Positions 3 through 33,792 of a DNA stretch of 33,792 nt are shown piece after piece. Under the pieces are notes generated by a model. The model was not told where the DNA came from, made no database searches, and saw only the letters and a list, made by a program, of their open reading frames with translations. The translations under genes and the position numbers were made by a program. The number at the start of each line of letters is the position of its first letter. Within the stretch, counting starts at the first letter, position 1. The DNA is from Elusimicrobia bacterium RIFOXYA12_FULL_57_11 (GTDB lineage Bacteria; Elusimicrobiota; Elusimicrobia; Elusimicrobiales; UBA9959): positions 1 to 33,792 of the forward strand of contig MGVB01000122.1 of assembly GCA_001800275.1 (NCBI GenBank). Direction: 5' to 3'.

Positions 3-3000
3 CCCGCGCCGTACGTCAGCCGGCGCTTTATGGTTGACGGCACTCCGCCCGCCATAGTGATAACCACGCCCACCGCTTCGGCCGTGAGCGCCATAGCTTA
101 CCTGATGGGCACGGTGGATGCTTCCACCTCGGGGCACAAGCAGACCGAAATACGCATTTCCACCGGCACTACCCCCGACACCCGCTATTGGAAGGACGGA
201 ACCGGCTGGCTGCCCTCCCCGGATACCTGGAACACCGTGCTGCCGGGCCTTACCTGGCCCACCTCGTGGCAGTATAGCGTGGATCAGACCGCGGCCATGC
301 TTAAAGACGATACCCGCTACACCGTGTCGGCGCGGGCGCTGGACTGGGCTGGCAACTACTCCGCCGTTTATTCCACATACTCTTTCACCTATGACAGGAC
401 CGCCCCGGCGGTGGCAATATCCTCGCCGGTCGCCGCTGAAACCTACTCTGCCATAAAACCGGTAGTTATCAACGGCACCTCGCTTAACGGCCAGCTCTCC
501 CAGGACACCGGAGTCAGCACGATGGCGGTGCGGATAGTCAGAGATCCCAACGGCACTCCCGCGTATTTCAACGGTGCCTCGTTCGGCGCAAGCTCGGTGT
601 GGCTGCCAGCGCACGGCACCACGGGCAACTGGGACTACGCCAGCGCCAGTCTTACCTGGGAGAATACCACGCAGTACCGCATAGACGCGCGGGCCACGGA
701 CTTCGCCGGCAATATGACAGCGCCGGTGCAGTCTACCGTGTTTAAGTACGATATAGAAACGCCCACTTCCACGCTTACATACCCGCTGCCGGGCTATACC
801 ACCGGGTTTACGCAGATAAGCGGTACCGCCTCGGACGAACAATACGGAAGCAGGCAGTATTTTGCCGGCCTGGCCAGCGCTACCGTGAATGTAGCAGTCA
901 AGAACCTTACCACGCTGCGGTGGTGGAACGGCAGCGACTTCACCAATTCCGCGGAACCGGTGTGGTACGAGGCTTACAACAGCACCGACGTTACGCCCAA
1001 CCAGTTCAGCTACAGCCTGGACGCCGGGCTGCTGGCGTATATGGCCAACCCGGCCAACCAGAACGTAAGCTACCTGCTGGTGCCGTGGGCGTTCGACCTG
1101 GCGGAGAACCGGGAATATGGGCCCGCCGGCGGTAAGCCTACCAACGCCAATGTGCTGACCGCGGGGGTCGGGACGGTTATTACCTACGACCGGCAGAAAC
1201 CCCTTACCTACATAACGCAGCCCGCCGCTGCCGCCAGCTATTACCGGACGCTGGCGGACATCACCGGCACTGCGGGTGACAATGCCGGAATAACCGAAAT
1301 TAAGTTCACGGTGTTCCAGCTTTCGCCCAACAAGTATTACACCCCGGCAGGGTGGGTGGACGGCGCCGAGAGCGCGGCCCCGTGGCTGACGGCGGTGCCC
1401 ACGTTCACCCAGCCTACCGCCTCGTGGACCTATAATATTCAGGATTCCACCTGGACCAGCGGCTACCAGTACCGTGTTCGGGCGCGCGCCCGCGACGTGG
1501 CGGGCAACTACGACACGGTTTACGCCACCTCCACTTTCACCTACGATAGCCAGGTCCCCGGCTCCACGGTTACGGCCCCGTCCGACTGGATGCATATAAA
1601 TAACGGCGCGCTGCCGCTGGAACTCAGCGGCTCCAGCTGGGATCTGGGCGGCTCCAATGTGGACCGGGTAAATGTCTACCTGCGCAGGTCTGACGGGTCT
1701 TACTGGGACAACAGCGCCACCTGGTACCCGCCGGCCAGCCCGCAGCTGCTTACCGCTAATTTCACCAACCCCTGGACGCTGACCGTGGATAACGACATGT
1801 ACACCGGCCTCGACGGCGAGGTGTTCAGCGTGTACACCGGGGCTACCGACGGCGCCACCAACCAGGAAGCGCTGAGCCTCAAGGCGCGGTTCGTTTACGA
1901 TATCCGCAACCCGACGGCCACTATAACCTACCCGCTCAATACCGGGTTCGTAAGCCTTACCGGCAAGGTTACCGGCGAGTCGTACGACAAACCCAACGGC
2001 ATGGTAGGCGATGTGCGCGTGCGGATAAAGCAGCTTACAGGCGGAATCCCCGGCACTTACTACAACGTGGGCGGCGGAACCTGGGATGGTTCGCTGGTGG
2101 ATAACAGCGTGGTGCTGCACGGGACGCTCAGCTCCGGTGCCACCTGGTGGCAGCTTAACGCCGCGCCGTGGACCACCGGCTCCACCTACGAGGTAAGCGC
2201 CTATGCGGTTGACCGGGCCGGCAATACCCAGGTGGTCTACTCTACCGCTACCGACGTTACGGCCGACTTTACCGCGCCTACCTCTACCGTTACCTGGCCC
2301 GTACACGGCCTCTCCTACAACGTGGAGGTAAACGCGGTGTCTATTACCGCTTCGGACGCTGTAGGAACGCTGGCCGGGGTCAGGGTCTCCTACTTCAAGG
2401 TGGGGGAAGACCGCTACTGGAACCGGACCAACATGGCCTGGGATTCTACGGACGACAATCTTTTCTATAACGCGACCCTGGTGGGCGGCAATGTCTGGCA
2501 GGCTACCGGGATCTCCACCCCCAGCTGGGTGACCTCCGGCTCCGGTGAAATAGAGTACCGTATTTTCGCCCAGGCCTACGACGCGGCCGGCAACGCGGTG
2601 GCCAAGCCCGTTTTCCCGGCGGCCAATACCTCGCATATTCAGTTCAGGCTGAACCCGCCGCCGCCGGTTTCGGCTATAACCGCGCCAAATACCTTTACCC
2701 CGCACTGGAAAACCAACCCGGTGCCGGTAATAATGGGTACCGCCGTTTACTCCACCACGGTCCAGCTGAGGATAGTGGATTACGGCCCGGACCTGGCCGA
2801 AGGCGCCGGCAACGACGACCGGGTGTGGAACGGTACACAGTGGGAATCCACCGATACTTTCACCGGGTTCAGCTTCGTGGATTTCTACTCTGTATCCGCT
2901 TCCAGCTGGAACTGGAGCATAGCGCCGGAAAAATGGACCGTTAACCGCAAATACCGTGTGGTGTCTAAAGCCAAAAATGACACGGCTGGGACCGAGGAAA

Positions 3001-6000
3001 GCCCGGGCGGCGGCCGCGAGTTCGTTATAGACTCAACCGTGCCGGTGGCGGCTATCACCGCGCCTGTAACCGCTCCTGCCGGCGTGTTCGTCAAACAGCT
3101 CGCCTCGCTGACCGGTAATGTTTCCGATACGGCGCCTGGTCTGGTGCAAAGCGCTTATTTCAGGGTGAGCAACGCGGTTTCGCAGTACTGGAACTGGCAG
3201 GCCTCCACCTTTACGATAGCGACCCCGCCGTATACGGACCTGACCGCCGTGATTAATGCCGGGATAGCGAGCTATACCACGGATTATTTCCAGAGCGGCG
3301 CCGCCTGGGAAACTGATGCCCAATATACGGCCGAACTTTACATAAACGACAAAGCCGGCAATTCCGCCACGGCTTTGCCAGCGGTATTTACCATAGACCG
3401 TTCTTCACCCGTGGCGCAGGTGCTCCTGCCTCTGGACGTGAACGATTCCGGCGTACGCGTGCTGGGCGCCGTGTCCGGCACCGCTTCGGACAACAGGGAA
3501 AATGCCAACGTATACCTGGCCATGCAGCAGCTCAGCGGTTCCATGAAATGGTTCCATAACGATACACAAGGGTTCACGCTGACGCAGGCCCAGCCCAACT
3601 GGATAGCGCTACTGGGCAATACCAGCGGCTACCTGTCCGCCAGCGCCACTTCCTGGATGTACGCGCCGTTGGGGCTAGATGCCGCTTTCGTTTCGGGTTC
3701 CGAGGGAACCCCCGGTATAAAGTACCTTATACTGGTCAAGGCCGCGGACTCGGCCGGCAACGCGCAGGACTCGTTCGGCGTTACGATTTCCTCGCTGGTC
3801 ATAAAGATAGACAAGGCCGCGCCGTATCCTTTGCCGTCCGTTACCCTTCCCCTGGACGACCAAAACGGCGTCAGCGGCCGCTATAAAGGAACCGATATCG
3901 GCCAGGCCGCCTCCCAGTTCAACGGCACGGCGCGGGATTCTTATTACAGCGTAAATAATTCCACGGTAGCGGAGGTACGGATAAGGCTCTCTTACCTGGA
4001 CGCCACGGTCACCTGGTACTGGACCGGGTCCTGGCCCTGGGTTTCCGGTATAGATCCTGAAACCGCCTGGCAGCTTACCGACCTTACCGGCTCCGCGCCG
4101 GCCTGGGACTGGCGTTATGCCCCGGCTTCCAATATAACCTGGCCCCCCGGGGACTGGGAGTATAAGCTGGAAACCAAAGCCATGGACGACGCCCGCCCGG
4201 CGCAGGATTCCGGGGACGGCAACTGGACTGCCGCGCAGAGCCGCGGCGCGAACCTCAAATATTTTATAGTGGATAATACCCCGCCTTCCGTGGCCATTAC
4301 CACGCCGTCGGCCTCAGTCAACGCCCTTAACGCGTTTGCGGGGGTTTACGGTACCGCTGCGGCCGACAAGGCCGGCCACCAGTACAGCCAGGTGCGTATT
4401 TCCACCGGCCTGCCCGGCTTTGAGCAGTATTGGAACGGTTCCGCCTGGACAGGCTCGGCCGATACCTGGAACACCATCGCCGCCCAGTTTATCTGGCCGT
4501 CCTCCTGGTACTACACGGTGGACGGCGCCATGCTCAAAGATGACGTGGTATATACGGTGTCGGCCCGCGCCCGGGACTGGTCCGGCAATTATTCCGCCGA
4601 CTACTCCACCGTGGCGTTCACTTATGATATTACCGCGCCCACGCTGCAGATAAATACGCCGTTAAACGACGGCAATTATTCGGCTATCAAGCCGTCCACG
4701 TTCTCCGGCCAGGCTTTCAACACCCAGGAGTCGGCCTATACCGGGCCCAGCACGGTAACCCTGGCCGTTACGGATATAACAAACCCGGGCGACCTGTACT
4801 GTTTCAACGGCCTGGCTTTCGGCGCCTGCGCTGCCGCTTTGTGGCTGCCCGGCCAGAGCACCGCCGGCAGCTGGAGTTACGATATCCCCGTGGGTAATTT
4901 CCTGACCGACCATAAATACCGTTATCAGGCACGCGTCCTGGATTTGGCCGGCAACCCGTCCGCGGTCTCGAGCGTGGAAATAAAATACGACCTGGATATC
5001 CCGACCTCCACCGTAACCTCGCCGGCCGCGGAATACGTGAATACCCTGCCGGCGATAGGCGGCCAGGCCAGCGACGACCTGGCCAATAACAAGACTTACG
5101 AGGCCAGGCTGGGAACCTATACCGTAAAAGCCGCGTTGAAACTTTACTACGGCGGCTGGTGGAACGGCGTAGACGGGTTCGGCTCCGCCGACCCGGTCTG
5201 GTACGAAACCGCGGTGGATACCGGCGCCTATATTCTTAACAGCGTGGTCGTGAACTGGAACTGGAACGTGCCGCCTAACATCCAGACCGCTATAAACAGC
5301 CTGGGCACCACGGATTATCTGGCCGTTTCCTGGGCGTATGACCTTGCCCAGAACCGGCAGTATGGCCCGGCCGCCGGCGAACCTGCTGCCATCCCGGCCG
5401 GTACCGCCGGCCGGCTGATAAGGTTTGACAACCAGAAGCCGGTGGCCCTGGCCACCGCCCCGGCCAATGGCGTGTATCTGAGTACCGTTACGACACTGTA
5501 TGGCACGGTAGGCGATTCCGGCGCCGTAGACCGGGTGCATGTAATGGTAAAGGCCCGGGGCGCGTTCAACGCTTATTGGAAAGGCACGTATACCGGCACC
5601 TTTGGCGACTGGGATACTACTCCTGCCACCAAGTATACGCGCTGGAGCACCGCCACTTACGCCGGCGCCGCCTGGTCCATAACCCTGCCTTCCCTGGACC
5701 CGGTGAATAATTCTAAAATTTCAGTGTGGGTGCGCGCCGTAGATAAGGCCGGCAACTGGATGGATACGCCGGTTGCCGCCCAGTTGGACGGCAACCTGAA
5801 CGCCGATAATTCCGCCGCGCACCACTTCACTTTCGACACCAGCCTGCCGGTAACGGACGTTACGGTGCCGCAGGCGTATTTCGTGGCGGGGTCCACCAAC
5901 CTTGTCCGCGGCACGGCTTCCGATCCGGGCTCCGAGCCCAGCGGCGTAGACAGCGTGCAGGTACGGTTCGGCCGCTCGGACGGCGCCTTCTGGCATTTTT

Positions 6001-31357: not shown

Positions 31358-32989
31358 ATGAAACGCATTAGCTGTAATGCTTCGTTAGCTATATACGCAT
31401 CCACGCACCGCTTCGCGGTTGTGCGTGGTTTTTTTGTTTACGGTATCGTTCTTTTTGCTGCGGTCCTCGCTCTGCTGCCTTCCGGCCTGCTTGCGCAGAG
31501 CGGCGGCCAGCCCGGGCAGTTCATGGCCTACGGCGCCGGCGCGCGCAGCCTGGGCATGGGCGGCGCGTTCTTCGCTGTAGCGGATGACGCCTCGGCCTCG
31601 TACTGGAACCCCGCGGCTCTGACCCTCCTTGAGCGTAAAGAGTTCTCGGCTATGCAGGCCAGCCTGTTCGCGGACACCACTCTTAACTTTTTCACCTACG
31701 CCCACCCCACCACCTCAAAAGGCACATGGGCCGTCAGCTTGACGCAGCTGAAATCGGTTGGGTTTGAAAAAATAGAGATAAGGGCTAACCCCGCCGGTGA
31801 TGAGATAATAGATATAAAGACCAACGGCTCTTTCGATAATGTGGAACAGGCGATGGCTTTTTCATGGGGCCGTGACGTGTCCGAAAAACTTTCTTTCGGC
31901 GTCATGGCCAAGAATATCACCCGCTCGCTGGATACCTCGGTAGACTCTTTCAAATCCCTGGATATCGCCATGCTGCAGAAATTTTCTCCCACCTACCGCG
32001 CGGCGGTAGGCGTGCAGAACGTGTTTTCCATGGCTTCGGGAGATACGGACGATAAACTCCCCATGACGGTAAAATTCGGCCAGGCCCTGAGCCTTTTCAA
32101 GGGGAGCCTTGTGTTCGGTCTGGACCTGATAAAGCCCCAGGGTTCCGACCTCAACTGGCGCTTTGGCGGTGAATACTGGCTTATGTACTGGGCAGCGCTG
32201 CGTTTCGGCGTGGTGGGGGCTCCCGGCCTGCAGGAAGCGGATTTCGGCCTTGGCATAAAATACCGGAACCTGGGTTTTGACGTGGCGCAGGGCGTGCATG
32301 CCCTGGGCTCCACCACACGGTTTTCAGTGACCATGCGCATGGGCAATTCCAGCAAGGCCAAGCACTCCACCGAGGTCCGCGAGATAGTGCGCCAGGCCAT
32401 GCAGTATTTCAAGGCCGGGTATTTCAGCCGCGCCGTGGAGAAGCTGCGGGCCGCCATGGACGCCGATCCCGGCAATGCCGAGATACGCCGCATGATAACC
32501 CGCCTGCAGGGCGCCATAGATTACGTGCCCAACGCCACCGGCGGCGAGGAAGTGCCCACCCTTACGCGGCGCGGGATCATAGCCTACGTGGACGGCAAGG
32601 ACATGCGTGCCGCCGTTAACGTGCTGCGCCACGCCTTCAACAAGGAGCCCAAGAACGACCGCCTGCTGTCGCTGCTGAACATGGTGGAAAAAGAGGGCGG
32701 GGTTTCCGAAATGACACGCAAACCCGAGGGTCCCGAGATCTTTACGTACATAGACCAGCGCACCTACGACGCCCGCCAGGCCATCTACGACGGCAAGTAT
32801 GACCTGGCCATGACGCGCGCCCAGGATATCCTGGACCTTGAACCCAATAACGAGACCGCCCTCGAGATCATGGGCAGTTCCTTCTACCTCATGGACCAGA
32901 AGGAGAAGGCGAAAGTTATCTGGGAAAGGGTGCTGGAAATCAATCCCGACAACCGCATGGTAAAAGACTTCCTTAAACAGGTCAGATAA
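31358..32989 (+). CDS. PorV/PorQ-family outer-membrane barrel protein with C-terminal TPRs
   Basis: The mature part opens with GARSLGMGGAFFAVADD-ASASYWNPAAL, the hallmark N-terminus of PorV/PorQ (UPF0164-like) proteins. Beta-barrel-like alternating strands continue to FSVTMRMG (~residue 330). From ~335 to the end are TPR-like helices (FKAGYFSRAVEKLRAAMDADPGNAEI; YDGKYDLAMTRAQDILDLEPNNETAL; EKAKVIWERVLEINPDN). PorV is the outer-membrane shuttle of the type IX secretion system that binds cargo C-terminal domains (family knowledge). The neighbouring cargo-like giant protein fits this role. The start is ambiguous. ATG 31358 gives a 46-residue signal peptide with a long n-region. GTG 31421 gives a textbook 25-residue one (RGFFVYGIVLFAAVLALLPSGLLA, cut before QS) but lies in the terminator stem. 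Neither has a good Shine-Dalgarno. The TPR extension is unusual for PorV. Confidence 0.88.
   Translation: MKRISCNASLAIYASTHRFAVVRGFFVYGIVLFAAVLALLPSGLLAQSGGQPGQFMAYGAGARSLGMGGAFFAVADDASASYWNPAALTLLERKEFSAMQASLFADTTLNFFTYAHPTTSKGTWAVSLTQLKSVGFEKIEIRANPAGDEIIDIKTNGSFDNVEQAMAFSWGRDVSEKLSFGVMAKNITRSLDTSVDSFKSLDIAMLQKFSPTYRAAVGVQNVFSMASGDTDDKLPMTVKFGQALSLFKGSLVFGLDLIKPQGSDLNWRFGGEYWLMYWAALRFGVVGAPGLQEADFGLGIKYRNLGFDVAQGVHALGSTTRFSVTMRMGNSSKAKHSTEVREIVRQAMQYFKAGYFSRAVEKLRAAMDADPGNAEIRRMITRLQGAIDYVPNATGGEEVPTLTRRGIIAYVDGKDMRAAVNVLRHAFNKEPKNDRLLSLLNMVEKEGGVSEMTRKPEGPEIFTYIDQRTYDARQAIYDGKYDLAMTRAQDILDLEPNNETALEIMGSSFYLMDQKEKAKVIWERVLEINPDNRMVKDFLKQVR
31364..31379 (+). promoter_or_regulatory. Small hairpin between riboswitch and terminator
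   Basis: GCATTA-GCTG-TAATGC is a perfect 6-bp stem with a 4-nt loop, just after ATG 31358. It may be part of the riboswitch expression platform. No clear antiterminator pairing with the downstream terminator was found by eye. Confidence 0.4.
31401..31435 (+). terminator. Intrinsic terminator in riboswitch leader / 5' coding region
   Basis: The stem is CCACGC+ACCGC pairing with GCGGT+GCGTGG (3-nt loop TTC, 3-nt bulge TGT), at 31401-31428. It is followed directly by TTTTTTT (31429-31435). This is a textbook Rho-independent terminator ~45 nt after the aptamer, so it is the likely expression platform. It lies inside the frame annotated from ATG 31358, and its 3' arm contains the alternative in-frame GTG start (31421). 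Confidence 0.8.
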
Positions 32990-33048: not shown

Positions 33049-33792
33049 ATGAAGAAGCTGCTGCTCGCTTTGTCCCTGCTCCTGCCGGCCTGCCCGGCGG
33101 CCTATGCCGCCGACGGCATGGACGCCTCCCTTATGGAAAAACAGGATTCCATGCGCCGGGAGATGGAAAACAAGATCAAGACGGAGATCCTGGACCCGAT
33201 ACTCGGGCCCGCCAAGTCGTTCGTTTTTGCCGACGTGGAAATGGAAGTGATAGCCAAGAAAGCGGAGCAGACCAAGGAGGGGCTGGGTGTAATACAGAAG
33301 TACAAGGAGAAGGGGGCGTCCACCGGCGGCGGCGACGCGGATTTCCTTTTGCCGGGCATTCCCAAGCCGCGCTCCGTGATGGCCAAGGAGGATAAGCGCC
33401 CCGAATCTTCCCAGGGGCAGCAGGCCCAGCAGGGCAAGGGCGTGCAGGAAGTGCGCTACGGCCTGGGCACGGAAGTCACCCGCTTCCAGGTTACGGTAAT
33501 CCACGATGACCGCCTGGCGCCTGACAGCCTTAAGCTGGCGCGCGAGCGGATAGACGATTTCCTTGTTCCCTATAAGATCCGCGGGTCAGGCGCGCCGACA
33601 GTGGTTTTTAAGCCCACCAAATTTAAGGGGTATAATATCCTTGACGATATGAAGCGCCCGGGGGTGTACCTCCCGCTGCTTTACGCGGGGCTTTTCCTGC
33701 TGTTGCTGCTGTTCCTGTTCGGGCCTTTGTGGGGATTTTTCCGGAAATATGTGCAGGCGCTGCTGTCCAAGCCCGGGGCCGAGGTCAATATA
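33049..33792 (+). CDS. FliF C-terminal-like membrane protein with signal peptide (3'-partial)
   Basis: This gene is missing from the ORF track because the frame is still open at the window end (248 codons). Start ATG 33049 gives a signal peptide, MKKLLLALSLLLPACPAAYA, cut before ADG. Residues ~35-80 (NKIKTEILDPILGPAKSFVFADVEMEV...EQTKEG) match the FliF M-ring segment of the form RIxxILxPIVGxGNVxAxVxAxLDF...EQTEExY. A Q/G-rich linker (SSQGQQAQQGKG) follows. Residues ~135-195 (VTRFQVTVIHDD...LKLARERIDDFL...IRGSGAPTVVF) match the FliF strand-helix-strand before its last membrane helix. A transmembrane helix (LPLLYAGLFLLLLLFLFGPLWGFF, ~205-229) and a basic cytoplasmic start follow. The FliF N-terminal membrane helix and YscJ-like ring domains are absent. 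It is likely co-transcribed with the porV-like gene. Confidence 0.8.
   Translation, partial: MKKLLLALSLLLPACPAAYAADGMDASLMEKQDSMRREMENKIKTEILDPILGPAKSFVFADVEMEVIAKKAEQTKEGLGVIQKYKEKGASTGGGDADFLLPGIPKPRSVMAKEDKRPESSQGQQAQQGKGVQEVRYGLGTEVTRFQVTVIHDDRLAPDSLKLARERIDDFLVPYKIRGSGAPTVVFKPTKFKGYNILDDMKRPGVYLPLLYAGLFLLLLLFLFGPLWGFFRKYVQALLSKPGAEVNI

Follow-up and report, generated by a model that had tools for sequence, protein, structure and literature searches.

GldLM, the motor of Bacteroidota gliding, powers both the T9SS and gliding. Within the flagellar motor, MotA meets FliG through the charge pairs R90-D288/D289 and E98-R281 (PMC12505986). Laboratory fusions of FliF to FliG assemble 34/35-mer rings (PMC11481574), and ring formation by a laboratory FliF-FliG fusion is described in a second report as well (PMC6079021). 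It has been raised as a possibility that rotor proteins serve other functions in the absence of a filament (PMC12199754). Elusimicrobia have been noted to lack flagellar genes (PMC7031533). Here we describe a gene cluster of this phylum that probably encodes a non-flagellar ion-driven rotary motor, in which a natural FliF(RBM3)-FliG fusion would act as rotor and torque would be passed to outer-membrane partners, likely in a machine of the gliding type. No description of a natural FliF-FliG fusion with MotAB in non-flagellates was found in the literature searched, although preprints and subscription journals could hold one.

The window, that is the whole stretch of 33,792 nucleotides analysed here (the first part of contig MGVB01000122.1 of Elusimicrobia bacterium RIFOXYA12_FULL_57_11), ends inside a forward-strand open reading frame that starts with ATG and continues for 248 codons without meeting a stop (Table 1). 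That it has no stop there is due only to a run of 21 N (33793-33813) in the contig, which is 55,751 bases long in all. The original prediction had drawn attention to this unlisted frame and interpreted it as a stand-alone 'minimal FliF'. The frame was borne out, but the gene does not stand alone, as it runs past the gap into sequence matching FliG_M (7.5e-8) and FliG_C (1.2e-25), followed by TPRs. As assembled, the parts before and after the gap are in different frames, the gap length being nominal; in relatives about 65 residues lie between the points that match its two sides, all within one ORF. Indeed, a single ORF covers both parts in 22 aligned long-form relatives, and the order in relatives is signal peptide, FliF RBM3, one membrane helix, FliG_M and FliG_C, with TPRs in the long form. 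Three further loci of the same genome encode a signal peptide-FliF_C-FliG fusion as one ORF (short paralogues). Judged from the relatives and paralogues, the fusion probably extends across the gap in RIFOXYA12_FULL_57_11 itself, and we take the window ORF to be the predicted N-terminal third of a natural FliF-FliG-TPR fusion of roughly 640 aa. A chance or spurious ORF was ruled out by identities to relatives that reach 75%, together with low dN/dS. Over eight pairs dN/dS was 0.05-0.21 for the fusion gene and 0.06-0.27 for its FliF part; the fusion gene is under purifying selection.

Table 1. Features of the window and of the adjoining part of the same contig.
Feature	Position	Strand	Remarks
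Giant surface protein with Ig-like repeats, at least 10,370 aa	3..31115	+	Single ORF; 5' open at contig end
PorV/PorQ-family outer-membrane barrel with C-terminal TPRs	31358..32989	+	Directly upstream of fusion; NF033709
N-terminal 248 codons of predicted FliF-FliG-TPR fusion gene	33049..33792	+	Signal peptide, RBM3, membrane helix
Signal peptide MKKLLLALSLLLPACPAAYAA	33049..33111	+	Cleavage site judged by eye; alignment of relatives
Periplasmic ring domain resembling FliF RBM3, alpha-beta-(low-confidence insert, FliF beta-collar position)-beta-alpha-beta	33115..33618	+	Model, Foldseek, profile-profile
Single C-terminal membrane helix, FliF TM2 equivalent	33658..33768	+	Model helix residues 204-240; sequence
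FliG_M/FliG_C/TPR	33815-34795	+	Beyond window, same contig
Coiled-coil protein, 693 aa	34894-36975	+	Beyond window, same contig
MotA	37327-38154	+	Beyond window, same contig
MotB	38175-38912	+	Beyond window, same contig
Lipoprotein	38916-39677	+	Beyond window, same contig

Taken by itself, the window protein provides weak direct evidence of FliF at the sequence level. Pfam gave no FliF match to it and, at E<=1, only one spurious match, while a PF08345 search of its own genome returned the three other loci and not the window locus. The window family as a whole, when compared by profile with five FliFs, matched them at E=2e-7 (93.6%) and matched the short paralogues at 3e-23; the latter match FliF by profile-profile comparison at 1.5e-13 and pass the PF08345 (YscJ_FliF_C) cut-off at 6e-11. 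In an AlphaFold2 model of the window protein, built from a 30-row alignment (mean pLDDT 72.5), a predicted alpha-beta unit, a low-confidence insert and a beta-alpha-beta unit precede the membrane helix, which in the model is the RBM3 arrangement with the insert at the position of the FliF beta-collar. A Foldseek search of the PDB with this model placed FliF first (E=7e-6), and ranks 2-16 were all FliF RBM3/MS-ring structures. As the window model is only partly confident, the TM-scores stay modest, at about 0.3 by query and up to 0.5 by target. These data confirm that the window protein comprises the FliF C-terminal RBM3 ring domain and a membrane helix, as the original prediction had proposed, and both of the motif regions on which that proposal drew are present. 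Its further claim, that a signal peptide replaces the N-terminal membrane helix and YscJ-like domains, is visible in the sequence: RBM1, RBM2 and the first helix are absent from the fusion, with the signal peptide in their place. The single-span topology with a cytoplasmic tail also held; the tail had been expected to bind FliG, but is itself FliG.

With respect to this tail, a profile of the full fusion matches the FliG structure 1lkv at 4e-57, spanning the M and C domains, and aligns to FliG only from the M domain onward, no match to FliG_N being found. By Foldseek the fusion model matches FliG (3.6e-11) and also MotAB-bound FliG_C, with a TM-score of 0.94 by target. In 30 long forms the acid at the FliG D288 position is always Glu, the R281 position is Gly in 27, and the K264 and R297 positions are variable. 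Since only some of the FliG charges in contact with MotA are retained, the stator interface of the fusion would be related to, and not identical with, that of flagellar FliG. The MotA encoded in the cluster aligns end to end with MotA of solved structure (1.7e-50; Pfam, 9e-28) and retains the Glu of an 'SLE'-like motif preceded by a basic residue, which we take to be the counterparts of E. coli E98 and R90. The accompanying MotB matches the Pfam plug (1e-11) and OmpA (7e-20) families and keeps the membrane Asp. Both proteins score below the NCBI equivalog cut-offs; by their sequence features, a cytoplasmic FliG-contacting region in MotA and a transmembrane Asp and OmpA domain in MotB, they can be classed as a MotAB-type stator.

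The gene order around the fusion is conserved across the phylum. A single pattern-based contig scan, which was not exhaustive, yielded 79 loci, all of them titled Elusimicrobia, Elusimicrobiota or Endomicrobia or belonging to nameless MAGs. Counted by tblastn, with only loci with enough flank in the denominators, PorV-TPR lies upstream of the fusion in 63/65 loci and the coiled coil downstream in 62/65. MotA is followed by MotB in 42 of 49 (7 of the 49 testable loci gave no MotA within 9 kb), the lipoprotein is present in 36/49, and the C terminus of the giant protein lies upstream in 35 of 62. At the window locus the upstream barrel scores 104.8 bits against NF033709 (cut-off 90) and reaches neither the PorV nor the PorQ equivalog cut-off, the giant protein has a FlgD_ig/T9SS-CTD-like C terminus, and unrelated genes, such as mnmA-like and ddl-like ones named by reading the sequence, lie 3' of the lipoprotein. 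Contig C122 also carries two tandem similar secreted serine-protease-like genes (L006:860-1873 and 2104-3186). The partners of the three paralogous loci are MotA, a coiled coil, MotB, a histidine kinase, a response regulator and PorV-TPR at C8 (L007), a kinase and a coiled coil at C34 (L008), and MotA with two MotB genes at C115 (L009). Across 150 phylum genomes FliG_C occurs in 48, with 1-5 copies each, and nearly all of the frames are 475-725 aa; two far longer FliG-containing ORFs with extra parts were also seen (L083, 1,244 aa; L084, 944 aa).

Among the same 150 genomes FlhA, FliM/FliN and YscJ_FliF (PF01514) over cut-off were each detected in one genome only, G032, with a single sub-threshold PF01514 match in G090. 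G032, one of the 48 genomes with FliG_C, is a true flagellate whose flagellar gene cluster (G032:C2, L085), unlike anything in the other 149 sampled genomes, provides a positive control for these searches. Flagellin over cut-off was found in none of seven genomes (the source genome, five of the same genus and CP096137.1); the closed chromosome CP096137.1 carries the fusion, its single FliG_C lying within a frame of 703 aa, and neither FlhA nor flagellin was found on it. According to the original prediction, a full flagellar operon with a separate normal fliF in the vicinity would speak against it. Neither was found close to the window gene, and the neighbourhood together with the FlhA, FliM/N and YscJ_FliF searches rules out a flagellar operon there; on this point the prediction stands.

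It had further suggested the base of a non-flagellar rotary or secretion device, and had pointed downstream as the place to look for FliG- and MotA/B-like genes. The FliG domains, MotA and MotB were found there, beyond the gap, and make a rotary device the likely context. The motor parts are well supported by homology and synteny. About 30 copies of the fusion would form a periplasmic RBM3 ring with one membrane helix per copy, a number suggested because FliF and laboratory FliF-FliG fusions form such rings. The FliG domains would hang below the ring in the cytoplasm, where MotA5-MotB2 units, anchored to peptidoglycan through MotB, would push FliG_C and so turn the ring. Direct fusion would remove the need for FliG_N, and the lack of FliM/FliN suggests that the motor has no CheY-type switch. 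With export gate, rod, hook, filament and FliM/FliN switch all lacking, torque would have to leave via the periplasmic ring, toward the PorV-TPR barrel, the lipoprotein and the giant surface protein. The TPRs of the cytoplasmic tail and of PorV may be docking sites, and the coiled-coil protein may serve a cytoplasmic structural role. The final output would most likely be movement of surface adhesins (gliding-type motility), or else the energising of secretion.

It could be argued that the motor replaces GldLM and energises secretion through a T9SS-like SprA/PorV translocon, rather than driving adhesin motility. Of the 150 genomes, 129 encode a SprA-like translocon protein, about 1,750 aa in length, among them all 48 that are FliG-positive, and GldL over cut-off was found in none of the 150 (the only weak match is in FliG-negative G033); the known T9SS motor seems to be missing from the phylum. 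A PorV-family gene beside each cluster type and the T9SS-CTD-like end of the giant neighbour would fit such a role. It should be emphasized, however, that the SprA-like protein also occurs in 81 of the 102 genomes without FliG. The link to the T9SS is thus not specific, and SprA does not everywhere depend on the motor, since in those 81 genomes SprA works without it. Moreover, the clusters come with PorV paralogues of their own, and a genome often has several of these. The SprA-containing genomes that lack FliG favour surface-protein movement rather than general secretion, although they do not settle the matter, and we regard a secretion motor as unlikely.

Considerably less probable is that the ring built by the fusion is static or serves secretion, like that of SpoIIIAG in the sporulation channel, and that the MotAB-like genes do other work. 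When the sequence profile of the RBM3 part was compared with the PDB, SpoIIIAG was the best match, although at only E=0.034, and by fold it ranked 21 in the Foldseek search; such a ring, however, would hardly be fused covalently to FliG_M and FliG_C, the stator-contacting part, nor have MotA-MotB in its own cluster at 42/49 loci. That the fusion is a functionless remnant of a lost flagellum is scarcely credible, for although the gene set of G032 indicates that flagella occur in the phylum, this reading is contradicted by dN/dS and by phylum-wide synteny with non-flagellar partners, and sits badly with the long open frames of the gene, present 1-5 times per genome, and with the added signal peptide and TPRs.

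A rotary motor with a fused rotor, the reading we prefer, would constitute a conserved, testable case in which stator and rotor are under selection without a flagellum and are encoded beside outer-membrane proteins. It bears on the origin or re-use of flagellar motors, and on possible ways for environmental bacteria without flagella to move or to power their outer membrane. The cluster would be a variant of the MotAB-driven rotary motors, and there is a fair chance that it proves a categorically new system once the output is known. The fuller proposal, of a categorically new flagellum-independent nanomachine in which an RBM3-FliG rotor moves PorV and giant adhesins, with several versions per cell in non-flagellate Elusimicrobiota, is put forward tentatively, as slightly short of an even chance.

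Compared with characterized systems, the cluster shares an RBM3-like domain with the SpoIIIAG sporulation-channel ring, by a weak profile match, but SpoIIIAG has neither FliG nor a stator. The engineered FliF-FliG fusions of Salmonella and Vibrio are likewise covalent and form rings, as is predicted here; they are, however, laboratory constructs with full-length FliF, whereas the cluster fusion is natural and lacks RBM1 and RBM2. The Myxococcus Agl-Glt gliding motor resembles the cluster in its MotAB-like motor, its cytoplasmic coiled-coil partner and the absence of a flagellum; no FliF/FliG ring is known from it. With GldLM/PorLM, which serve the T9SS and gliding in Bacteroidota, the cluster would have in common an ion-driven motor that is associated with giant surface proteins and with outer-membrane proteins of the SprA/PorV type; it differs in its MotAB-type stator and FliG-type rotor ring, and GldL was not found in FliG-positive genomes. 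Finally, the RBM3 ring domain, the second FliF membrane helix, FliG_M, FliG_C and the MotA/MotB homologues are those of the flagellar motor. In contrast with that motor, FliM/FliN, FlhA and flagellin are absent from the cluster-bearing genomes tested and FliG_N is lacking, while the cluster fuses FliF to FliG, has a signal peptide in place of TM1, RBM1 and RBM2, carries a TPR tail and adds an outer-membrane PorV-TPR partner.
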